This document shows, in pieces, positions 14,153 through 63,645 of a stretch of 64,000 nt of DNA. The DNA is from Aquabacterium lacunae. GTDB taxonomy: Bacteria; Pseudomonadota; Gammaproteobacteria; Burkholderiales; Burkholderiaceae_C. Made by a program: the position numbers and the translations under genes. Below the pieces are notes generated by a model. The model was not told the origin of the DNA and searched no databases. It worked only from the letters and a program-made list of their open reading frames with translations. The first letter of the stretch is position 1. The number at the start of each line of letters is the position of its first letter. The DNA lies in contig NZ_SIXI01000004.1 of assembly GCF_004310865.1 (NCBI RefSeq), forward strand, positions 186,001 to 250,000, read 5' to 3'.

Positions 14153-15082
14153 TCAGGCTCCTTGCAACTGCTGATCACGAGACGGGCGAGACATCAGGCG
14201 CAGGAGACCGTCTGCGCCCACAGTCAAGGCCAGTGCAATGCCGAAGAGCACAATGCCTGCCAGACCGTGCAGATACCCCTGCCCCATTTCATCGCCCAGG
14301 TGATAGGTGATCAGCGCGAGAAACAGCACCCGCAGCATGTTGGCCAGGAAAGAGATCGGAACGATCAGGATGCCCAGGATGACGTTGCGCGTCATGGACG
14401 AGTGCTTGACCACATTCAGGTAAAAAATGCCAAGCGCCTCAAGCATGAACAGGGTGCGCATGCCTGCGCAAGCATCCGCCACCAGCAACTGGTAGGGACC
14501 GATGGCCAGGACCACGCCGGTGTGAGCGATCGGGTAACCGAAGAAATGAAGGATCTCTGTCACCACGATCGAGATGTGCAGCTTCACGAACTGGCTGATC
14601 GGATCCAGCACGAAGCCCGGGATCGGTACCATGAACATCATGAAGAACAAGGGGAACTTCAGCTTCATCAGCAAAGGCCACCCTCCCAGGAGCGCCACCA
14701 TGCCGATCAGCATGGGCACAAAGGCGAAGGTCTCGAAGTAGATGATGTTCAACGCCCGCCCGGGGATGTAAAACGCCACCCCAATCAGGAAAAACACCCA
14801 GCCCGACCAGGTGCCAGCAGCGCTGCCGTCCAGGGTCCCTTCGAAGTCCTGCCACCGGGTCCAGAGCAACCACAGAGACAGGCACAGCATGATGGGGCCA
14901 TGGCTGTGCTCGTCCTTGTTCCACAGACCTCCGTCTTCGTGGAAGAACAGGCTGTAAAGCGTGAGGGCAAACATGCCAAACAGTCCGATGGCCAGCACCA
15001 GGACATCGACATTGATTGGCAACAAGGAACCCCGCTCTGGGGTGCTTGATGTGGGTGTGGTTGTGGTTGTGGATGGATTCAT
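14153..15082 (-). CDS. xrtB: Exosortase B (copy 1)
   Basis: Exosortases are polytopic inner-membrane cysteine transpeptidases thought to cut PEP-CTERM proteins and link them to a surface partner. This copy (309 residues from ATG 15082, GGGAG upstream; an in-frame ATG at 15136 would overlap epsG) shows the family triad: Cys205 in LLVADACAGMRTLF, Arg251 in FLANMLRVLFLALITYH, and His272 in GQGYLHGLAG. It has about eight hydrophobic segments and the DEHSHGPIML motif near the N-terminus. It sits between epsG and epsI in the order typical of XrtB EPS loci. A second copy is at 19997-20875. Confidence 0.93.
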   Translation of the reverse strand: MNPSTTTTTPTSSTPERGSLLPINVDVLVLAIGLFGMFALTLYSLFFHEDGGLWNKDEHSHGPIMLCLSLWLLWTRWQDFEGTLDGSAAGTWSGWVFFLIGVAFYIPGRALNIIYFETFAFVPMLIGMVALLGGWPLLMKLKFPLFFMMFMVPIPGFVLDPISQFVKLHISIVVTEILHFFGYPIAHTGVVLAIGPYQLLVADACAGMRTLFMLEALGIFYLNVVKHSSMTRNVILGILIVPISFLANMLRVLFLALITYHLGDEMGQGYLHGLAGIVLFGIALALTVGADGLLRLMSRPSRDQQLQGA

Positions 15083-15125
15083 GGACCGCTCTCCCTGCCC
15101 AGTGATTCTTGAAGTTGAGGCTCGC

Positions 15126-16040
15126 TCAGTGGTCATTCATGAGAACGCCACCAACGCGTACCGTCGACTTTTTGAGTTGCTTGACAAACTGCTGCATGTT
15201 GTCGACGCGGGTGCGCCCTGAACGCCCGACCAAAAGGCATGCGCCACAGTGCGCAGCGATCATGCGGGCGTCAGGCCCCAAGCTGGCTGCCGGCGTGTCC
15301 ACCAGCAGGTAATCGAACTTGCCCAACAACTCCTTGATGAGCAACGAGAAGGCAGCCCTGTGCAGCAGTTCAGCCGGGTTGGGCGGCATCACGCCTGCGG
15401 GCAGCATGTAAAGATTGGGCAGGTGTTTGACTGGCTTGATGACATTGGCCGCAGCGCGCCCTGAAAGAATGCCCGAGAGTCCGCTGCTGACATCCACACC
15501 GAAGATTTCATGCAGGCGTGGGTTCCGCAGATCGGCGTCGACCAGCAAGGTGCGCCCAGGCAACTGACTGAAAGCCACAGCCAGGTTGGCCGCCACGAAC
15601 GATTTGCCATCGCCGACGTCGCTGCTGACGATCGACAGCGCCTTGCGGTCATCGCCATGGCCCATGGGCCCGGAAAGCATCTGGGTGCGCAATTCCCGGA
15701 ACGACTCCACCTGCTCGCTGAAGGGCGTGTTGGCGACCACCAGTTCGGCGTGCAGTTCACCTTCGGAGGTGGGCGTGTAGGGGTAGTGAAACTGCTGAGC
15801 CAACGCCCAGACGATGTCCTGGGAGGTGGCCAATCCAAGGGCCACAACCGCTTCGCCGAACCTGACGCCGTTGAGGTTCTGGTAATCCAGCGCGTCCTTG
15901 ACCTGCTCGGCCGTCAGGCCTTTGGTCCTTCGCAGGATGTCGCCCAGGGAGTTTTCGGCCTGCTCAGGCATGACGGCTTCGCGGCCGATCATCGAGGGTT
16001 GCTCGGTCATCGGAGCGTTGGGGTGTGTGTTCTTGTACAT
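15126..16040 (-). CDS. epsG: EPS chain-length tyrosine kinase-like ATPase EpsG (copy 1)
   Basis: The 304-residue protein has two parts. Residues 30-90 (LGDILRRTKGLTAEQVKDAL onward to FHYPY) resemble the GspE/MshE N-terminal domain. Residues 105-304 are a BY-kinase ATPase with Walker A SSDVGDGKS (139-147), Walker A' LLVDADLRNP and Walker B DYLLVDTP (243-250). The C-terminus ends VGGVLMNDH without the tyrosine cluster of Wzc/CapB kinases. It should work with EpsF to control polymer length and export at the inner membrane. The start ATG has GAGG 5 bp upstream and lies 7 bp after epsF. Confidence 0.92.
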   Translation of the reverse strand: MYKNTHPNAPMTEQPSMIGREAVMPEQAENSLGDILRRTKGLTAEQVKDALDYQNLNGVRFGEAVVALGLATSQDIVWALAQQFHYPYTPTSEGELHAELVVANTPFSEQVESFRELRTQMLSGPMGHGDDRKALSIVSSDVGDGKSFVAANLAVAFSQLPGRTLLVDADLRNPRLHEIFGVDVSSGLSGILSGRAAANVIKPVKHLPNLYMLPAGVMPPNPAELLHRAAFSLLIKELLGKFDYLLVDTPAASLGPDARMIAAHCGACLLVGRSGRTRVDNMQQFVKQLKKSTVRVGGVLMNDH

Positions 16041-19996: not shown

Positions 19997-20875
19997 ATGA
20001 ATTCAAGCACCACCTCAGGGGCCCCCGTCAAACCGGAACTTCCGGTGATGGCGTTGGGTGCCTGGCTTCTGGCCTATGTTCTGTTCTACGCATCGACGTA
20101 CAGCGTCCTGATGCGTGACACCTGGAGCACCGACGATCAAGGGCATGGCCCGATGATCATCGCAGCGGCTGCTTTCCTCGCGTGGCAGCGCCGTCATGAC
20201 ATCTTTGCGGGCTCGGCCCGCCCCGCCCCCGGTTGGGCGGGCGCTCTGATGGTGCTGGCCATGTTGATGTACGTGGTTGGGCATTCGCAGAACATCATTG
20301 AAATGGAAGCGCTGTCGCAGATCCCGGTGCTGATCGCCGGGCTTCTGCTGGTCCATGGGTGGTCGGCGGTGCGCAAGGTCTGGTTTCCGCTGTTCTTCCT
20401 GCTGTTTTCCATGCCGCTACCAGGCGCCTTGACACAGATGATCACCATGCCACTGAAGTTGGCGGTGTCCACGGTGGCCGAACAGGTGCTGTACTGGATG
20501 GACTACCCGATCGCGCGTGTGGGCGTGATGCTCACGGTCGGACATTACCAACTGCTGGTCGCCGACGCATGCTCGGGCTTGAATTCGCTGTTCACGCTGG
20601 AAGCCCTCGGGCTGCTGTACATGAACGTCATGAACTACACCAATCGCGCACGGAATGTGCTGCTGGCGGTGATGATCGTGCCCATTTCGTTCCTGTCGAA
20701 CGTCACCCGCGTCATCGTCCTGGTGCTGCTGACCTACCACTACGGCGACGAAGTCGGGCAAGGCTTCGCTCATAACTTCTCGGGCATGGTCCTGTTCACG
20801 GTGGCCCTCGTGCTGACCTATTTGTTTGACTGCCTGCTGTCGATGTGGTTTGACAAAAAGAGGAAAAAAGCATGA
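19997..20875 (+). CDS. xrtB: Exosortase B (copy 2)
   Basis: The 292-residue polytopic protein has the complete exosortase triad: Cys192 in LLVADACSGLNSLF, Arg238 in FLSNVTRVIVLVLLTYHYG, and His259 in GQGFAHNFSG. The N-terminal motif DDQGHGPMII corresponds to the EHSHGP motif of copy 1. By eye it is clearly homologous to copy 1 but far from identical, which argues against a recent duplication. EpsI copy 2 overlaps its stop by 4 bp (ATGA). A 75-bp gap separates it from the glycosyltransferase upstream. Confidence 0.93.
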   Translation: MNSSTTSGAPVKPELPVMALGAWLLAYVLFYASTYSVLMRDTWSTDDQGHGPMIIAAAAFLAWQRRHDIFAGSARPAPGWAGALMVLAMLMYVVGHSQNIIEMEALSQIPVLIAGLLLVHGWSAVRKVWFPLFFLLFSMPLPGALTQMITMPLKLAVSTVAEQVLYWMDYPIARVGVMLTVGHYQLLVADACSGLNSLFTLEALGLLYMNVMNYTNRARNVLLAVMIVPISFLSNVTRVIVLVLLTYHYGDEVGQGFAHNFSGMVLFTVALVLTYLFDCLLSMWFDKKRKKA

Positions 20876-56347: not shown

Positions 56348-56424
56348 CGGGGTGTAGCTTAGCCTGGTAGAGCGCTACGTTCGGGACGTAGAGGCCGGAG
56401 GTTCGAATCCTCTCACCCCGACCA
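56348..56424 (+). tRNA. tRNA-Pro (anticodon CGG)
   Basis: The 77-nt gene folds as a cloverleaf: acceptor CGGGGTG/CACCCCG, D-arm AGCTTAGCCTGGTAGAGC, anticodon stem CTACG/CGTAG with loop TTCGGGA (anticodon CGG), T-arm GGAGGTTCGAATCCTCT and an encoded 3' CCA. It reads CCG codons, common in this GC-rich genome. Confidence 0.97.
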
Positions 56425-56498: not shown

Positions 56499-57602
56499 TC
56501 AATTCGCGTGGCGACCGCCACGAGCCTCCGCCCCCAGCCCTTTGCGTGCCAGGTGCACCATCAGCAAAGCCGGTGGCATGCGCAACCAATGCCCGCGGAT
56601 GTAGAGGGCTGTCTGCGCCAACGGCGTCCAGGCATCGGAGAGCATCGGGTGTTGCGGAACCAACGCACGGTCGAAACATGCGTCGAGTACCGCCTGGCGC
56701 CAGCCCTTCGCCTGACCAGGCGCTGCACCAGCCAGCGCCTCCAGACATGCTGCGGGGACCGGCTCCTCCAGTTGCCTTTGCAGCTGCCGCAACGCTTGTC
56801 GCAATGGTATGCACAAAGACAGGTGCTGAGCCCGCGACACCAACTGCCCCCAAAAGGCCTCACCACATTGAGCCACGTTGGCGCGGATCAGGGCCTGCAG
56901 GTCCAGCAAGCCTCGGAACCCTTGCTCGAAACTGCCCTCATGCATCAGGTGCGTGGCGCTGTGCAACACCATGTCGACATCACCAAGCACCCGGTACCCA
57001 CCACGCACCGGCACAGACCCGGCCAACAGCAGGGCGGAAGAAGGGCTCAATCGTGCCGTCCGGGGCAAGATGGCATGGTGAACATCGACGACCGTGCCAC
57101 GCCTGATGTGCACCATGGGCGGCAGCTCATGCATCCACCGACGGTAATAGCGCTGGTCATAGTCGGATTTGCCCGACGAGGACCAACCGGCAGCCAGCAA
57201 AGCCGACTCCACACGGTCGAGATCGGCACCAGGCACCAGGATGTCGACATCTGAGACGGTTCGGCCCAGACCGGCATCCATCCCGGCCAGGATGTAGGCC
57301 GCACCCTTGAGCAGTACCACCTGCACACCCAGGCCCTGGACTGCCCCCATGATCTCCTGAACCTCGAAGTCCAGTTCCAGATGCTGCCTGCGGGTCACCA
57401 ACTCCGCAGCCACGAGATGGGCACGCACGGGGTCTGGAACTTCGGCCCATCGCCCCGACCGCCTGATCATGGCAGCCAGCCGCCCCATCACATCGGCTGC
57501 ACGCGCCAGTCGGATGACTGTTTCCCACGCCTGGGGTGACGGCAAAGGCTCATCCTGCCGCCCAGACAGACACCGCACCAGCGTGCGAATCGCCTCATGC
57601 AT
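56499..57602 (-). CDS. Nucleotidyltransferase family protein of the HPr-rel-A cassette
   Basis: From ATG 57602 the product is 367 residues. It has the minimal nucleotidyltransferase core: VVLLKGAAYILAGM (Lys99-Gly100) and RTVSDVDILVPGADL with the metal aspartates Asp118 and Asp120, matching the NTP_transf_5-type family. The C-terminal 200 residues are helical and unassigned. The ATG overlaps the stop of the HprK-related gene by 8 bp (ATGCATGA), so the two are coupled. It is the last gene of the prsR-prsT-cassette run. Such enzymes move a nucleotide onto a protein or small molecule; the acceptor here is unknown. Confidence 0.8.
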   Translation of the reverse strand: MHEAIRTLVRCLSGRQDEPLPSPQAWETVIRLARAADVMGRLAAMIRRSGRWAEVPDPVRAHLVAAELVTRRQHLELDFEVQEIMGAVQGLGVQVVLLKGAAYILAGMDAGLGRTVSDVDILVPGADLDRVESALLAAGWSSSGKSDYDQRYYRRWMHELPPMVHIRRGTVVDVHHAILPRTARLSPSSALLLAGSVPVRGGYRVLGDVDMVLHSATHLMHEGSFEQGFRGLLDLQALIRANVAQCGEAFWGQLVSRAQHLSLCIPLRQALRQLQRQLEEPVPAACLEALAGAAPGQAKGWRQAVLDACFDRALVPQHPMLSDAWTPLAQTALYIRGHWLRMPPALLMVHLARKGLGAEARGGRHAN

Positions 57603-58506
57603 GCTCGGCCTCCAGCGCATCGAACCAGGCCAAGGCATCGTTCAGACGGCTGTAGGTCAGCTCGTGGCTGCTGCTGCGATCCACCAGGTCTGCCAAGGCA
57701 TGAAAACCAGCATGCCCATGCAGATGTCGATTGAAGCTGTTGCGCTGCAACTGCAGCAGCGTGTGGGGCCGTGACAAAGGCGCAGCCTGCAAATCAGCGC
57801 CCGCCATGTAACGGGGGAAAACCACCCAGGCGGGGCGCGCCCTGACATCGGCCAACTCAATGCAGTGTGAGGCCACCTGCAAATGGCACACCGTGCCCTT
57901 CTGTGTGTCTCGTGCGACGGGTCCCATGTTCAAGGTCCCCTTGCGTCCGCTGATCAATTCAATGGAAGCGTTCTTCAGGCTGATCGGCCGCGGATTGGGC
58001 ACCAGCATGCCATCGACCGGATCCAGCATGGCGAGCTCATCCGACAGGAGGCGCCAGCCATGCAGCATCAGCGCCGCACACAAAGTGCTCTTGCCCGATC
58101 CCGGCGGTGCGGGCAGCAAGACCGCAAGACCGTTTTTTTCCAGCACCGCAGCGTGGATGTGAATCCACCTGTGGCAATGGCTGGTGACGCACCAGTTCAG
58201 CCCCCACTCAAAAAAAGCGTACGCTTCGCTGCGGGCCAATGGCGTGAAAGGCCGTCGACCGTCGAGCTCGAAGTGAGATTGCGGTGACCAAGGCCACCCA
58301 CCCGCCTTGACGGCCACTCTGAAGTCCACAAACCCCGTGGGCTCCAGCCACGCCTGGTGCTCGGCGTACAGGGCATGCAGTCCGTCGGCGACCACTGGCA
58401 CATCGCTTCGAACGTGCACCACAAACGGTGACACGCTGAGAAACAGGCCATCACCTTGCAACGCTTTCAGCAACTGAGGCCGGCTCCAATGCGACAAGAC
58501 GGGCAT
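57595..58506 (-). CDS. HprK-related kinase A
   Basis: From ATG 58506 the product is 303 residues. It shares the HPr kinase P-loop region, LLPAPPGSGKSTLCAAL (Walker A at residues 132-140), the preceding HIHAAVLEKNG strand and the following WRLLSDELAMLDP motif, but lacks the N-terminal and phosphorylase signature parts of true HprK. I recall such genes as HPr-rel-A kinases, found with PqqD-like and nucleotidyltransferase genes, often in PEP-CTERM bacteria. The start overlaps the PqqD-like stop as TGATG. A client protein, not HPr, is the likely substrate. Confidence 0.85.
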   Translation of the reverse strand: MPVLSHWSRPQLLKALQGDGLFLSVSPFVVHVRSDVPVVADGLHALYAEHQAWLEPTGFVDFRVAVKAGGWPWSPQSHFELDGRRPFTPLARSEAYAFFEWGLNWCVTSHCHRWIHIHAAVLEKNGLAVLLPAPPGSGKSTLCAALMLHGWRLLSDELAMLDPVDGMLVPNPRPISLKNASIELISGRKGTLNMGPVARDTQKGTVCHLQVASHCIELADVRARPAWVVFPRYMAGADLQAAPLSRPHTLLQLQRNSFNRHLHGHAGFHALADLVDRSSSHELTYSRLNDALAWFDALEAEHA

Positions 58507-58787
58507 CAGGCACCTTGCACAATGAAGCCTTGTTCGGCCAGGGCCACCATCAACGCGGCCACCTGCTCGCACTCGGTCGCTGTGGCTGACTGGTCGAGCA
58601 GCCTTTGCGCATATTGGTCAGCGGTGCCACCTGGGTGGTCGGCGATCATGGCCATCAGCTCGGCCGCCACGGGCGTGACTTCGTACAGCGAACCATCGGC
58701 CTCATCATGCACCACCCCACCCTCGGGCCAGCCTCGCAGGGCATACCGGCCAGCGTTAGGCCAATACCGAACGCCAGGCGTCAACAC
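58506..58787 (-). CDS. PqqD-like protein of the HPr-rel-A cassette
   Basis: From GTG 58787 the 93-residue product has the size and fold pattern of PqqD (winged helix, RiPP recognition element): the strand pair RYALRGWPEGGVVHDEADGS and YEVTPVAAELMAMIADHPGG, then helices to the C-terminus. PqqD-type domains bind precursor or leader peptides and hand them to modifying enzymes. The start codon is embedded in the last codons of the upstream secreted-protein gene (GTGTTGA; TTG 58784 is an alternative start), so translation is coupled to it. Longer open frame upstream is a shadow. Confidence 0.8.
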   Translation of the reverse strand: MLTPGVRYWPNAGRYALRGWPEGGVVHDEADGSLYEVTPVAAELMAMIADHPGGTADQYAQRLLDQSATATECEQVAALMVALAEQGFIVQGA

Positions 58788-59434
58788 GAAGTGGTGCTGT
58801 TGATGAGACAGGGCGCGAACTGCCCAGGTTGAGTCGAATACACGCGGGCAAAGTACTGCAGCGTGGTGGGGAGGTCCCAGTTGACCCCGGCCACGGGACT
58901 CCAAACGCCTTTGTTTTCCCAAATGGCGCGCACCTGGGCCATGGTGATGAAGCTGTTGCCGCCGTACAGGTGGGCAGACAGGTAAGCTGCAGCCAGATAA
59001 ACGCCGAGTTTGACCTGTGCCGAGGTGGTGTTGACCGGGTCAACATGCATCACCGACCGGAGCGTGGCGGTGCTGGAAAAACCGCAGCCGGTGTAGCTCT
59101 TGAACCCGCAGTGGGAATAGAGGGAGTTGACGAGGAATCGCCAGTCACCAGGCGACGTGGAGCACCGGGTGCGGCAATCGGCGAGCGGCAGGTAAGAACC
59201 CGTGGTGGTACGACCAGGCGCAGCACTCATGTGGCTGGCCACGAAGGAGGCGTAGCAAGACGGCCGGACGGTGCTGTAGGCACTGGTGCTGGCCAAAACC
59301 AGATCGGATTGCACAGCTGCCAACACGGGCGCTGCCGCCAACCCGGCGCGCATCAGATCTCGCCGAGACACAGGCGACTGCAAGCGACTGGTGCCGGCCG
59401 TTTCGGTTTTCGGTTCCTGCTGTCGTTCGCTCAT
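58781..59434 (-). CDS. Tat-signal, Cys-rich secreted protein of unknown function
   Basis: From ATG 59434 (AAGG 7 bp upstream; a GTG two codons earlier is possible) the product is 217 residues. It begins with a twin-arginine signal, SRRDLMRAGLAAAPVLAAV (Arg24-Arg25), likely cleaved after about residue 48. The mature part has seven cysteines at 60, 87, 91, 109, 117, 209 and 217; the last residue is cysteine. The tail is PCLINSTTSC, rich in Ser/Thr. No family recognised, no PEP-CTERM motif, no membrane anchor. Its position between prsT and the PqqD/HprK/nucleotidyltransferase genes, with an overlap to PqqD, makes it the most likely client of that cassette. Confidence 0.75.
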   Translation of the reverse strand: MSERQQEPKTETAGTSRLQSPVSRRDLMRAGLAAAPVLAAVQSDLVLASTSAYSTVRPSCYASFVASHMSAAPGRTTTGSYLPLADCRTRCSTSPGDWRFLVNSLYSHCGFKSYTGCGFSSTATLRSVMHVDPVNTTSAQVKLGVYLAAAYLSAHLYGGNSFITMAQVRAIWENKGVWSPVAGVNWDLPTTLQYFARVYSTQPGQFAPCLINSTTSC

Positions 59435-59476: not shown

Positions 59477-62278
59477 TCACAACTGCTTCCAGAGGCCTTC
59501 GACTTCCGCCTGGCCCTTGAATTCAGACCCCAGCTTGCGAAGGACTGACAAGGTTTCCCGAGCGCCATTTTTATCACCGGACGCCAACTGATAGCGCGCC
59601 AGGGCCAACTTCAACTCAGGCTGAGACGGCTGGAGCTGCACGACCTGCTTTTGCAACTCCAGGGCCTTCGCCCACTGCTTGCCCTCTGCCAGCAACATGG
59701 CCCAGGTGTCGAGCACCATGGGATTCTTGGGGGCCAGCTTGTCCGCTTTCTGCACGAGCAGCAATGCTTCGCTTTTCCCTTGTTTGCCTTGGGCCCAGGC
59801 CAGGTTGTTCAGCGCCATCACGTTGTTGGGCTGCGCAGCGACCACTGCAGCGTAGAGCTTCTCTGCCAGAGGATACCGGTTTTCCGCCAAAGCGCGCTCC
59901 CCCATGTAAGTGAGGAACCCCCAATCTTTGGGGTGCTCCCTCATCCTTTGGGCGGACACCTTGTCCGCTTCTTCGACCTGACCAGACGCCCTGAGGGCCG
60001 CGTCCAGCTTCACCGCCAGGGTGGTCAACTCCGGCTGGAGACCTGACGCAGTGCGGTAGGGCGCCACGGCTTGTGCGGGCTGACCCGCCTGAACTTGAAG
60101 ATCGCCTTCGAGCACAAAACCAACCGGCTGCTTGGGGCGTTGCGACTGAACCTGTCGGGCCACGGCCAGGGCCTCCGGGATGCGTTTGAGCTGAATGTTG
60201 ACATTGACCAAAGCCGTCTGGGCAGCCAGCAATTGCGGCTCGACCTCAAGCGCCTTGTTCAGGCTGTCTCGGGCTGCCGGCCAGTTTTTGGCCGCCGCGT
60301 GCACTGAGGCGATCTGCACGTGCGGCATGCCAGATTCAGGCGCCTTCGCTGCAATCTTTCCATACGACGACAATGCCTGGTTGTGTTCGCCGGCGGCCAC
60401 CTGAACGGCTGCGAGAGCCTCGATCACCCTGACATTGTCGGGCGCGGCCGCCAACGCCGCCTGCGCGGTAGACAGTGCGCCCCGAACGTCTTTCTGGCGC
60501 AACTGGTAACTCACCAAAGCCAGGCGCGGCTCCATGACATCGGGGCTGGCGTCGATCGCCTTCTGAAGCTGGGCCACCACCTCCGAAGGCGCCGCTCCGC
60601 GCACAGCCTTGAGTTCGGCAAACGCCATCAGCGCCGCAGAGTGCTTGGGCTCTGTGGCCAGGAATGCCGCCACTTTGCTCTCAGCCTCGGCCAGTTTTTT
60701 CTCCAAAACATCCTGGGCCACCAGCGCTTTGACCAGCGGAAAAAACTTGGGATGCTGAGCGATCGCCGCCTGCAACACCTGACGGGAACCTGCGGCGTCG
60801 CCCTTGAGCATGAGCACCCGACTGCGCAGCAGCACCGGCATGGGGTCGTCCTTGCGCTTGCCTTGCAGTTGGTCCAGCGCCTTCAGCGCACCCGCCAGAT
60901 CGCCCTTCTGAACCAGTGTGTTGATCAACGCCATGTCGGCCATGACGCCCGTGTCCGTCGCCGCAATGCGCCGAAGGTCCTGAATCCCTTGCTCGGTCTC
61001 TCCACCCTGAAGTCGGCTGACAGCGAGTGCCGTCTGTTTGGCCGGGTCATTGGGGGTCATGCCTGCAGCCTTGCGCAACAAGGCATCTGCCTTGTCCTGG
61101 CTGCCCTGGAGGAGGTAGGCCTGACCAGCCGCAGCGATGAGGTCGCTGTCCGAACTGTCGATCACGTCCTCAGGGACCAAATCAATGGCCTTGTCCACCT
61201 GCCCAAGCTGCATGTAGGTCAGCATCAGCAGCCGACGAGCCACCGTGGAGTTAGGCGACGCCTTGACCGCCTTGCGCAACAAGGGTTCAGCCTGGAGCAA
61301 AGCCCCCGACTTGAACTCGACGACACCCGCCAGCTCCTGCACCTGAGGATTGTCGGGAGACTTGATCAGCAACTTCTGAAGGATCTCGCGTGTCTTGGGC
61401 AGGTCATTGGCCGCAAACGCCACCTGCGCTTCCATGAATTGCGTGAAGGGCAAGCCAGGGTCGAGTTTCTGCAGCTGCCCCAAGGCTTCAGAGGCCTCTT
61501 TCACACGTCCCAGGCTGAGGTGCACCCGCACGATGCCGACCAGCGCATCGCGAGCGCGGGGCTTCACTTCAACTGCCTTGCGATAGGCCTCAAGTGCCTC
61601 ATCTGACCTCTTGAGGCCGTAGTGATACAGGTCACCCTTGAGTTTCCATGCATCCGCGTCGTCAGGGTACTGTTTCAAGACTGAGGCCAACAGGGCATCG
61701 GCCTCATCGTACTTGCGTGCGCCCGCCAGGAATCTGGCCTTGAACACCTTGGCGCCGGCGTGCTCGGGCTGCAGCTGCAAGGCGGCGTCCACCACCTCCT
61801 GCGCACGCTCTCCTCGGTTCAGGCCGAGGTGAGCCTCGGCCACCAGCACCAGAAGGTCGGTTTGTGCCTTGGGGGTCGACAGCTTTTGGCGAGCAAACTG
61901 GTCAACGACTTTCTGATGCTGCAACTGAACCAGCATGGTTTCAACAAGCCGCGGCACCACCAGATCAGGGCTGTACCCCAGACTCAGTGCCTTGCGGTAC
62001 TCGCTTTCGGCGCCGACAGCATCACCTGTGGCCTGAAGAGATTGCGCCAGCAGCCACCGAGCTTCTGCCGAGTCAGGCTGCTGCTGGATCAGGTTCTTGA
62101 GCTGAATCACGGCGGCCGCATGGTCGCGCTTTTCCGCGTAAGCCTTCGCAGACGACATCAGCTCGGCAGGGTCGCTGCCACTGCATGCGATCAAACTGCC
62201 ACAGACCAGCCACACAGCCAGCCAGACCGATCGCCTGGTTTGAAAAACAAGAGACACAAAACCCCCAAATCTGGACAC
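59477..62278 (-). CDS. prsT: PEP-CTERM system TPR-repeat lipoprotein PrsT
   Basis: The 933-residue protein has a lipobox (CGSLIAC, Cys32) and then over 20 TPR-type repeats, for example LKNLIQQQPDSAEARWLLAQ and YAAVVAAQPNNVMALNNLAW. It belongs to the PrsT group found with the PrsK/PrsR two-component system in PEP-CTERM bacteria. It should be an envelope scaffold, possibly for EPS or exosortase complexes. Start is GTG 62278, 2 bp after the prsR stop, so it is coupled to prsR. The Cys-rich protein gene follows 42 bp downstream. Confidence 0.9.
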   Translation of the reverse strand: MSRFGGFVSLVFQTRRSVWLAVWLVCGSLIACSGSDPAELMSSAKAYAEKRDHAAAVIQLKNLIQQQPDSAEARWLLAQSLQATGDAVGAESEYRKALSLGYSPDLVVPRLVETMLVQLQHQKVVDQFARQKLSTPKAQTDLLVLVAEAHLGLNRGERAQEVVDAALQLQPEHAGAKVFKARFLAGARKYDEADALLASVLKQYPDDADAWKLKGDLYHYGLKRSDEALEAYRKAVEVKPRARDALVGIVRVHLSLGRVKEASEALGQLQKLDPGLPFTQFMEAQVAFAANDLPKTREILQKLLIKSPDNPQVQELAGVVEFKSGALLQAEPLLRKAVKASPNSTVARRLLMLTYMQLGQVDKAIDLVPEDVIDSSDSDLIAAAGQAYLLQGSQDKADALLRKAAGMTPNDPAKQTALAVSRLQGGETEQGIQDLRRIAATDTGVMADMALINTLVQKGDLAGALKALDQLQGKRKDDPMPVLLRSRVLMLKGDAAGSRQVLQAAIAQHPKFFPLVKALVAQDVLEKKLAEAESKVAAFLATEPKHSAALMAFAELKAVRGAAPSEVVAQLQKAIDASPDVMEPRLALVSYQLRQKDVRGALSTAQAALAAAPDNVRVIEALAAVQVAAGEHNQALSSYGKIAAKAPESGMPHVQIASVHAAAKNWPAARDSLNKALEVEPQLLAAQTALVNVNIQLKRIPEALAVARQVQSQRPKQPVGFVLEGDLQVQAGQPAQAVAPYRTASGLQPELTTLAVKLDAALRASGQVEEADKVSAQRMREHPKDWGFLTYMGERALAENRYPLAEKLYAAVVAAQPNNVMALNNLAWAQGKQGKSEALLLVQKADKLAPKNPMVLDTWAMLLAEGKQWAKALELQKQVVQLQPSQPELKLALARYQLASGDKNGARETLSVLRKLGSEFKGQAEVEGLWKQL

Positions 62279-62280
62279 GG

Positions 62281-63645
62281 TCAGCGAAGCCCAAGGCGGT
62301 GCATCAGGTCATACAGAGTGGGTCGGCTGACCCCAAGCAACTCTGCGGCCTGCAACACATTGCCATCCACACGAGCCAGTGCGGTGATGACCGCACGGCG
62401 TTCAGCCATCTCACGCACCTTGCGCAGGTCGAGCCCCTCGTCCGGCGACAACGACTCATCCAGCGGAGGCAAGCCGAGGTCGTCCGGCAGGATGCGCGGG
62501 CCATCTGCCATGATGCAGGCGCGCTTGATGCAATTTTCCAACTCTCGAATATTGCCAGGCCAGGCGTGGTGCTCAATGGCGCGCACGGCCTCGGGAGACA
62601 GGGACAAGGCGGCTCGCCCTGGCTGGGTGGCAAACCGCGCCACAAAAGCATGAGCGATCAGCACGGCATCACCCAAGCGCTGGCGAAGCGCTGGGATCTC
62701 GACCACGATTTCTGCCAGGCGATAGAAGAGATCTTCGCGGAACTGCCCCTGCGCGATCAGTTGCTTGAGATCCTGGTGGGTCGCACACACGATGCGCACA
62801 TCCACACTGATCTCCTGACGCCCGCCCACGCGCTCGATGACTCGCTCCTGCAAAAAGCGAAGCAGCTTGGCTTGCAGAGGCAACGGCAGGTCACCGATTT
62901 CGTCCAGCATCAAGGTGCCACCGTGCGCGGTCTCGATCTTGCCTTGAGTGGTCTTGACCGCCCCCGTGAATGCACCTTTTTCATGCCCGAACAACTCTGT
63001 TTCAAGCAGATTTTCGGGAATGGCAGCGCAGTTGATCGCCACGAATTTGCCGGTATGGCGGCCGCTGGCCTGGTGCAGCCCTCTGGCCATGACCTCTTTG
63101 CCTGTGCCACTCTCGCCCAGCAGCATGACCGTGGCATCGGTGTTGGCCACTTTTTCGATCATGCGGCATACCTTCAGCATACCGGGGTCGCGGGTGATCA
63201 GCCCCGCCATGGCGTCAGGCGCCTGGGCATGGCGCAAGCGGCGATTTTCCTGCTGCAACTCGTGCAACCGGAAAGCGCGCTCCACGGTCAGGGCCAAAAC
63301 CTCCGGCTCGAAGGGTTTGGCCAGAAAATCATATGCGCCCTCGTCCACGGCCTTGAGCGCATGCGCTTGATCGTTCTGTCCCGTCAACACAATGACCTTC
63401 GTGTCTGGGAACGCTGCCATGATCTCGGCCAGCAAGGCAAAGCCTTCGGTGGCATGGTCGGCGGCTGGAGGCAGGCCCAGGTCCATGGTCACCACAGGTG
63501 GCTGATGGCGTCTCATCAACGCCATGGCCTCCTGTCGGTCAGCTGCCGCCACAGACTCCAGGCGATCGAGCGACCAGCGAATCTGCTTTTGCAAGGCCAG
63601 ATCGTCTTCCACGACCAGGACGGAAGGGGTTTTCGCTTGGCTCAT
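62281..63645 (-). CDS. prsR: PEP-CTERM-box response regulator PrsR (sigma-54 activator)
   Basis: The 454-residue protein has a receiver (EDD 13-15, phospho-Asp55 in VVTMDLGLPP), a sigma-54 AAA+ domain with Walker A LGESGTGKE and the sigma-54 contact GAFTGA in GHEKGAFTGAVKTTQ, and a C-terminal Fis-type helix-turn-helix (ELLGVSRPTLYDLMHRLGLR). All catalytic motifs are intact. It is the partner of PrsK and should open sigma-54 promoters of EPS or PEP-CTERM genes. It overlaps prsK by 4 bp. Confidence 0.93.
   Translation of the reverse strand: MSQAKTPSVLVVEDDLALQKQIRWSLDRLESVAAADRQEAMALMRRHQPPVVTMDLGLPPAADHATEGFALLAEIMAAFPDTKVIVLTGQNDQAHALKAVDEGAYDFLAKPFEPEVLALTVERAFRLHELQQENRRLRHAQAPDAMAGLITRDPGMLKVCRMIEKVANTDATVMLLGESGTGKEVMARGLHQASGRHTGKFVAINCAAIPENLLETELFGHEKGAFTGAVKTTQGKIETAHGGTLMLDEIGDLPLPLQAKLLRFLQERVIERVGGRQEISVDVRIVCATHQDLKQLIAQGQFREDLFYRLAEIVVEIPALRQRLGDAVLIAHAFVARFATQPGRAALSLSPEAVRAIEHHAWPGNIRELENCIKRACIMADGPRILPDDLGLPPLDESLSPDEGLDLRKVREMAERRAVITALARVDGNVLQAAELLGVSRPTLYDLMHRLGLR

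Follow-up and report, generated by a model that had tools for sequence, protein, structure and literature searches.

A four-gene HPr-rel-A cassette in Aquabacterium lacunae and its candidate exported client protein

We analyzed a stretch of 64,000 nucleotides of the Aquabacterium lacunae genome (contig NZ_SIXI01000004.1, positions 186,001 to 250,000 of the forward strand), hereafter called the window, and describe in it a cassette of four genes that encode an apparently exported protein, a PqqD-like protein, an HprK-related kinase and a nucleotidyltransferase. For 105 out of 107 kinase loci we found a protein whose leader is of the same type as that of the exported one, 99 times within the locus and 6 times elsewhere in the genome. 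Since kinase, nucleotidyltransferase and leader-binding helper are nearly always encoded together with this protein, which we call the client, it is probably the target of their modification. We assign a probability of roughly 0.68 to the reading that the cassette is a leader-guided protein-modification system, whose exported client is phosphorylated, then extended, and leaves the cell through the twin-arginine translocation (Tat) pathway. The initial annotation of this DNA had proposed the secreted protein as the client and had named its absence from most cassettes beforehand as the outcome that speaks against the idea; this outcome was not observed.

The cassette and the co-occurrence of its client

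The four genes lie on the minus strand in an overlapping series (positions 56499-59434), directly downstream of prsT:

58781..59434, minus strand: client (precursor), 217 amino acids, apparently exported, with a Tat-like leader and 7 Cys; ATG at 59434 to TGA at 58781; group A, row 1 of profile A1 (106.7 bits)
59288..59365, minus strand: leader of the client, residues 24-49, from the twin Arg to the A-x-A-like end; leader profile 43 bits (a training row), profile A5 36.7 bits (also a row)
59243..59260, minus strand: SCYASF, client residues 59-64, candidate target Ser motif, near the conserved Ser columns of A1 and matching the C-terminal hexamer of group B
58506..58787, minus strand: PqqD-like protein, putative recognition element (RRE) of the kind found with ribosomally synthesized and post-translationally modified peptides (RiPPs), on the basis of its predicted fold; GTG at 58787; TIGR04353 22.9 bits (cut-off 35)
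57595..58506, minus strand: HprK-related kinase A; ATG at 58506; TIGR04352 341.6 bits (cut-off 200)
56499..57602, minus strand: nucleotidyltransferase (NTP_transf_5); ATG at 57602; PF14907 168.5 bits (cut-off 31.2)

All overlaps agree with the initial annotation. The PqqD-like gene starts inside the 3' end of the client gene (GTGTTGA, 7 nucleotides), the PqqD-like and kinase genes share one nucleotide in TGATG, and the kinase and nucleotidyltransferase genes overlap by 8 nucleotides (ATGCATGA). The PqqD-like open reading frame (ORF) opens at 58922 and starts other than GTG 58787 are possible. The proposed extent of the cassette does hold the four genes, but the chain of genes runs further, with prsK-prsR-prsT directly upstream on the same strand. 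The P-loop of the kinase is intact as first described (GSGKST, with K139) and is accompanied by H118 and D156-E157; across the 107 kinases, these four residues show a conservation of 0.99-1.00. The metal aspartates reported in the nucleotidyltransferase (D118, D120, D173) are also present and are conserved at 0.99 in 95 sequences.

By its score over the curated cut-off of TIGR04352 (HprK_rel_A), the kinase is filed in HPr-rel-A, a name given by NCBI (NCBIfam TIGR04352, TIGR04353). The PqqD-like protein corresponds to the usual partner in that system and falls below the cut-off of TIGR04353 (PqqD_rel_X); we take its gene as the homologous partner gene because of its location, the relatives that an iterative search from it retrieved, and its predicted fold. 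The adjacent nucleotidyltransferase gene is matched by PF14907 and has a homologue in 95 of the 107 loci. What differs from the curated system is the exported client, which, together with its relatives, is unmatched by NCBIfam (one stray hit aside) and has no convincing match in Pfam. Judged against these models, it is the assignment of the client to the HPr-rel-A system that is new. The window client itself returned no NCBIfam family at E 1, and in Pfam only a sub-threshold TAT_signal. In a search of the open literature, no paper was found that names 'HPr-rel-A', 'HprK-related kinase', 'HprK-rel', TIGR04352 or TIGR04353, and, when the components were searched together, no paper among the matches listed was recognised as describing the four-gene system.

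To collect kinase loci, we relied on TIGR04352, which scored over its cut-off in 50 of 300 genomes from the order and in 61 out of 398 sampled across the phylum, with six genomes shared. Together with two named records (L035, and L036 of Roseateles oligotrophus) these samples form the 107 kinase loci. A degenerate scan of contigs with P0003 as query returned only two loci. The training set comprised 52 loci, from the order and the two named records, and the remaining 55 were held out. We trained a leader profile on 45 clients picked by eye upstream of the PqqD-like gene in the training loci. Because a greedy gene caller was misled by shadow ORFs in several GC-rich loci, all frames were considered when picking clients.

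All 52 training loci have a client: the 45 picked by eye, 6 added by the leader profile, all downstream of the nucleotidyltransferase gene, and 1 more found by eye (L069). Of the 55 held-out loci, 53 were assigned a client. The leader profile supplied 42, inspection by eye 3 (L159, L163, L168) and a second profile 2 (L165, L167); the other 6 clients lie elsewhere in the genome, one of these loci being split by a contig break. The 42 held-out matches to the leader profile in the cassette region reached E values of at most 0.023 among 13,351 ORFs (12-44 bits). The profile never matched twice in the same locus and gave no match in four other loci. In seven stretches where the client lies apart from the main kinase match, a PqqD-like gene adjoins it in six. 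As for the two loci left, a client was looked for and not found in L171, and the contig of L152 ends within the kinase gene. All four components were detected by profile alone in 78 of the 107 loci. The identity of the client is well supported, and its relation to the cassette is strong. In one genome, a further client and a PqqD-like gene belonging to it lie on a contig other than that of the kinase (G478:C66, locus L188).

Two other ideas were rejected. The absence of any client family was first suggested since P0001 alone matched 3 of the 300 genomes, its own included; the relatives became visible because the ORFs upstream of the PqqD-like gene were read. The idea that the client always lies beside the PqqD-like gene does not hold either, as five loci of family f44 have the client after the nucleotidyltransferase gene and the PqqD-like gene before the kinase gene.

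The reverse comparison, in which client profiles were searched in genomes with and without the kinase, pointed in the same direction. From 97 clients we built profile A1 (31 group-A rows, L155 left out for mis-trimming) and profile A2 (27 group-B rows, L123 and L148 left out for the same reason). A1 matched 39 of the 300 genomes of the order, and its 36 leader-bearing matches all occur in the 50 kinase genomes, at the kinase locus. The other four matches consist of the domain only, without leader, within ORFs of 1046-2888 amino acids (G088:C22, G108:C33, G184:C43, G067:C65), two of them in kinase-free genomes; the group-A body therefore also serves as a building block within large proteins. 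A2 matched 39 of the 398 genomes, all of them among the 61 with the kinase and none among the 337 without it. Overall, no leader-bearing match was detectable in the kinase-free genomes, neither in the 250 of the order sample nor in the 337 of the phylum sample. The corresponding Fisher values (2e-35 and 1e-38) ignore relatedness and the construction of the profiles, and give a scale only.

Conserved leader, variable body

The conserved part of the client is the leader, while the body is highly variable, which gives the clients the look of RiPP precursors. The initial annotation had missed both this and the link with exosortase A in the order (see below). Almost all clients (95 out of 97) could be aligned to the leader profile. 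Arg-Arg is present in all 95, corresponding to residues 24-25 of the window client, and is followed by a hydrophobic stretch, with T or S at one position in 88 of them, and by an A-x-A-like (A/G) end, which is the pattern of Tat substrates. The consensus of 52 leaders reads RRRLxKGxxAxxPVxxTLxSxxxLA. These counts derive from the later profile alignment, as a regular expression for Arg-Arg had located the leader wrongly in some cases (L036, L053, L068, L071, L123, L148, L149 and L153 among them), so that early lengths and motif positions were wrong for those.

We searched the same leaders as a leader-only profile (A5, 52 rows) in kinase genomes of the order and in 50 kinase-free genomes. The latter, also used as the exosortase control below, were chosen by kinship and handle order among genomes with no kinase match at E 0.001, so that no genome with a weak HprK-like match is represented. 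In 42 of the 50 kinase genomes, A5 gave one match of at least 31 bits, always at the cassette, and at most 22 bits elsewhere; in the genome of the window, the leader is the sole match listed above 20 bits. The best score in the kinase-free genomes was 25.1 bits. Because of this single match at the cassette and the low kinase-free scores, the leader is, as far as its sequence indicates, more than a plain Tat signal.

This raises the alternative that the leader only binds the RRE and is no Tat signal, in which case the client would be exported by another route or not at all. The description of the window protein as a 'Tat-signal' protein is indeed only in part upheld: the twin-arginine leader is there, but the label is weak, with 14.6 bits for Pfam PF10518 (TAT_signal) and a gathering score of 22.7. 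Also the hydrophobic part, with its conserved P, T, L and S, is unusual for a plain signal. On the other side stand Arg-Arg in every aligned leader, the hydrophobic stretch and the A/G ending. Moreover, the runner-up matches of the leader profile in the genomes mostly cover no more than its Arg-Arg half, and we read them as ordinary Tat signals. We consider it unlikely that the leader serves recognition alone.

The AlphaFold model of the PqqD-like protein (predicted local distance difference test, pLDDT, 86.5) has the winged-helix fold of PqqD, in line with the fold pattern recognised at first. Its best matches in the PDB were 6jx3 (E 8.8e-4, the only one under 0.001), 5v1u and 5v1v, all complexes of a lasso-peptide B1 protein with its leader, followed by other RRE-bearing enzymes and by PqqD itself (5sxy). 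The TM-score, relative to the query, was 0.65-0.67 for 6jx3, 5v1u_B, 5v1v and 5sxy. The model therefore comes closest to leader-bound B1 proteins, and gives good grounds to regard the protein as a predicted RRE. When the near-invariant Thr of the leader and the near-invariant TH of the PqqD-like protein were compared across 89 loci, 72 had both, 12 had TH without Thr, 5 had neither and none had Thr without TH (P-value 1.5e-4). These columns were picked once the window had been seen to deviate in both, and the loci share ancestry; the covariation is therefore a hint, and no proof, that the PqqD-type domain may bind the client leader.

The client bodies fall into several groups. Those of group A have PGYW, with C..SGxxSGN just behind the leader, those of group B end with SCWxSF (the C and the second S are invariant in 36), and those of family f85 end with TC[FY]ASL; the remaining bodies are of other kinds, one of them of low complexity and composed of Ser, Gly and Asn. 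All 7 Cys of the window client lie behind the leader (residues 60, 87, 91, 109, 117, 209 and 217). 'Cys-rich', as the protein was first called, holds for this member more than for the family. A broad Ser pattern occurs in 77 of the 97 clients (shuffle mean 9.9) and the narrow pattern [ST]C[WYF]xS[FLIV] in 44 (shuffle mean 0.13), most carriers of either being homologues of each other. A single Ser motif for all clients was rejected, since the hexamer matrix derived from the 36 group-B clients matches only 12 of the 61 others at P-value ≤ 0.05 (chance alone would give 3), and fails to match the closest relatives of the window client. SCYASF in the window was picked by this matrix with a shuffle P-value of 0.003, unadjusted and for one of the 61 clients tested. 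We therefore keep the motifs, as read from the sequences, as specific to each subfamily, and their Ser is the likeliest target residue. The structure model of the window client reached a pLDDT of 32, and a search of PDB sequences with the group-A profile was negative (best E 0.8).

Proposed mechanism, related systems and alternatives

In the mechanism that we propose, the PqqD-type RRE would bind the conserved leader of the client in the cytoplasm and present the client to the HprK-related kinase, which would phosphorylate one conserved Ser of the body. The nucleotidyltransferase would then add a nucleotide or a sugar-phosphate to that phosphate. The modified client would leave by the Tat pathway, a signal peptidase would remove the leader, and the mature protein may end in the envelope or in the exopolysaccharide layer, whose genes surround many cassettes. 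By analogy with the systems described below, phosphorylation of the client is likely.

The closest parallel is LPP (linear polyphosphorylated peptides), a family of Bacillota composed of RRE, HprK-like kinase and NTP transferase, as described by Popov et al. 2026 (PMC13381572). According to this paper, LPP precursors have a conserved N-terminus, a variable C-terminus and 35-200 amino acids; the RRE LppB binds the leader and LppK phosphorylates Ser3 of the precursor core; the family is restricted to Bacillota, its leader carries YxxP, its peptidase is SipW-like and its transporter MsbA-like; and both LPP and paeninodin clusters are found close to genes for capsular polysaccharide. The cassette shares with LPP the discrete RRE, the kinase, the NTP transferase, a precursor with conserved N-terminus and variable body, and the surrounding polysaccharide genes. 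It differs in that it occurs in the phylum of the window and has a twin-Arg leader, protein-sized clients and an exosortase setting. The LPP leader motif YxxPxVLxHQxIxFETxxS is missing, with no YxxP in the leader consensus. We also rejected an LPP-type leader peptidase in this order, as the SipW-like (archaeal-type) signal peptidase model TIGR02228 was over its cut-off in none of 48 of the order's 50 kinase genomes, that of the window included (one weak match of 27.1 bits, cut-off 51.85; the positive control in B. subtilis was detected). No MsbA-like transporter was noticed among the neighbour clusters within 7 kb, where no profile search was made for it. Although its mode of action would resemble that of LPP, we do not file the system there, because the leader motif and, in this order, the peptidase are not those of LPP.

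The initial annotation had drawn its analogy from lasso peptides; the analogy is right, and LPP shows it to be closer than was known at the time. In lasso systems, as reported in the review PMC9266682, the HprK-like kinases PadeK, ThcoK and PsmK place a phosphate on a Ser of the precursor. A hexose on this phosphate requires PsmN, which carries the annotation of a nucleotidyltransferase, a nucleotidyl step followed by a host enzyme being also allowed. The HprK-like kinase, which in the cassette too would act on the precursor, the nucleotidyltransferase homologue and the discrete B1 RRE are common to the cassette and to the paeninodin-like systems (PadeK, ThcoK, SyanK, PsmK/PsmN). The differences are the absence of cyclase and B2 peptidase from the four-gene cassette, the client being a protein of 217 amino acids, and the reported His-Lys-Asp-Asp motif, which appears as His-Lys-Asp-Glu in the cassette kinase when positions are matched by reading. 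Neither a lasso cyclase nor a B2 peptidase was found among the four genes and the neighbours scanned, to which the scan was confined.

Several observations weigh against the proposed system, in addition to the sub-threshold Tat model, the limited reach of the group-B matrix and its mismatch with the nearest relatives of the window client. PqqD-like genes were found in 42 and nucleotidyltransferases in 43 of the 55 held-out loci, as compared with all 52 training loci for each. Held-out leaders often score low, with 16 of the 42 under 21 bits, as ordinary signals also do; in such cases the claim depends on their location next to the cassette. The genomes are related and hence not independent. 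The profiles hold rows from the genomes that were searched (27 of the 36 leader-bearing A1 matches, 21 rows of A2 and, partly, A5 rows from this order), so that the informative part of the reverse comparison is the absence from kinase-free genomes. In the window itself, the PqqD-like protein has no TH and the leader has no Thr. Finally, the 'protein-modifying' role of the cassette is drawn by analogy.

A further alternative is that the system makes a RiPP natural product, with the client as a long precursor that is cut after modification to a small active peptide, the rest being discarded. The combination of leader and variable body, RRE, kinase and nucleotidyltransferase is that of LPP and paeninodin, and an asparagine-synthetase-like gene (AsnB-like) lies within 7 kb in 28 of the 107 loci. 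However, group-A bodies have around 140-245 residues and conserved core columns (W, NA, Cys), so that they have the look of folded domains, this domain recurs within the large ORFs described above, and the LPP-type peptidase is not detectable in the order. We judge a small peptide product to be improbable. The weakest alternative, a regulatory kinase like HPr kinase/phosphorylase that phosphorylates an HPr-like or other regulatory protein and controls the exopolysaccharide genes, with the exported protein merely co-regulated, could draw on the position downstream of prsK-prsR-prsT, on pst/phoR-like genes near the cassette in family f85 and on a faint resemblance to HprK (18.3 bits for TIGR00679, cut-off 240; E 0.22 for PDB 1jb1), but it leaves the RRE fold, the conserved leader and the near-obligate client unexplained, no HPr-like gene was noticed among the neighbour clusters, for which no profile search was made, and we consider it very unlikely.

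If modification of an exported client is the correct reading, RRE-guided modification would extend from peptides of Bacillota to whole exported proteins of another phylum. An export signal peptide could then double as a docking site for modifying enzymes. The HPr-rel-A kinases, which have a curated name and no paper found to use it, gain a specific candidate substrate. More tentatively, and with considerable doubt, one may imagine that the Tat-type signal doubles as a RiPP-style recognition leader, and that one protein per genome, seldom two, is phosphorylated and capped with a sugar-phosphate in the cytoplasm before export, and then placed, with its phospho-glycan tag complete, in the exopolysaccharide made by the adjacent genes, or joined to it. 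On that reading the cassette would represent a protein-scale, Gram-negative branch of phospho-RiPPs and, where exosortase A is present, a third chemistry beside PEP-CTERM sorting and exopolysaccharide synthesis.

Exosortase A and the genomic neighbourhood

The genes upstream of the cassette belong to the XrtA/PEP-CTERM setting:

59477..62278, minus strand: PrsT, XrtA/PEP-CTERM tetratricopeptide repeat protein, directly upstream of the cassette; TIGR02917 683 bits (cut-off 312.2)
62281..63645, minus strand: PrsR, PEP-CTERM-box response regulator; TIGR02915 723.7 bits (cut-off 502.6)
L089:14643-16868: PrsK, following PrsR and mostly outside the window; TIGR02916 760.8 bits

An EpsB_2-type transferase is encoded further upstream of prsK-prsR-prsT. 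A sigma-54-like pattern was looked for upstream of the cassette within the window and not found. Of the order's 50 kinase genomes, 47 have an XrtA above the cut-off, as have 6 of the 50 kinase-free genomes. In this order the cassette goes with exosortase A, of which it is likely an accessory. XrtA as a universal partner was rejected, as outside the order it was over its cut-off in only 19 of 55 kinase genomes. PrsK, PrsR and PrsT are named in the 2006 PEP-CTERM paper (PMC1569441), in the accessible text of which a term search returned neither 'HPr' nor 'nucleotidyltransferase'. The cassette resembles that system in having prsK-prsR-prsT and glycosyltransferases as neighbours, and differs from it in that the client has an N-terminal leader and matches no C-terminal sorting model. 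The window also contains two exosortases over the XrtB cut-off of 275 bits (19997-20875, plus strand, 325.9 bits; 14153-15136, minus strand, 280.8 bits), and the same genome encodes an XrtA (C44:281868-282638) and, on C62, a fourth exosortase.

Neighbours within 7 kb of the 107 loci were clustered by BLAST and named from one scanned member each. Glycosyltransferases are present in one cluster with a TIGR03088 representative (25 loci) and in another with a TIGR03087 representative (19 loci), PrsT-like neighbours in 15 loci and EpsB_2-like ones in 9. A gene for an HtrA-like protease (one member scanned) occurs near the cassette in 21 loci (L042, L044, L046, L053, L054, L056, L060-L063, L068, L071-L073, L075, L084, L085, L132, L155, L159 and L160). 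The AsnB-like gene is found in L066, L070, L079-L082 and 22 of L118-L172. In L079-L082 it is directly upstream of the cassette, and the starts shown there lack the usual MCG, which most other loci keep. The one AsnB-like gene scanned, that of L081, is under every lasso-cyclase cut-off; an extra amide-forming step is possible.

The cassettes of L161-L166 and L168 (family f85) and of L170 lie within 7 kb of pstB- and pstC-like genes, named by reading, and L161 also has a PhoR-like histidine kinase, which was scanned and is under its cut-off. This setting differs from the exopolysaccharide loci. In the window, the nucleotidyltransferase gene is directly followed, on the opposite strand, by a tRNA-Pro (CGG) at 56348-56424.

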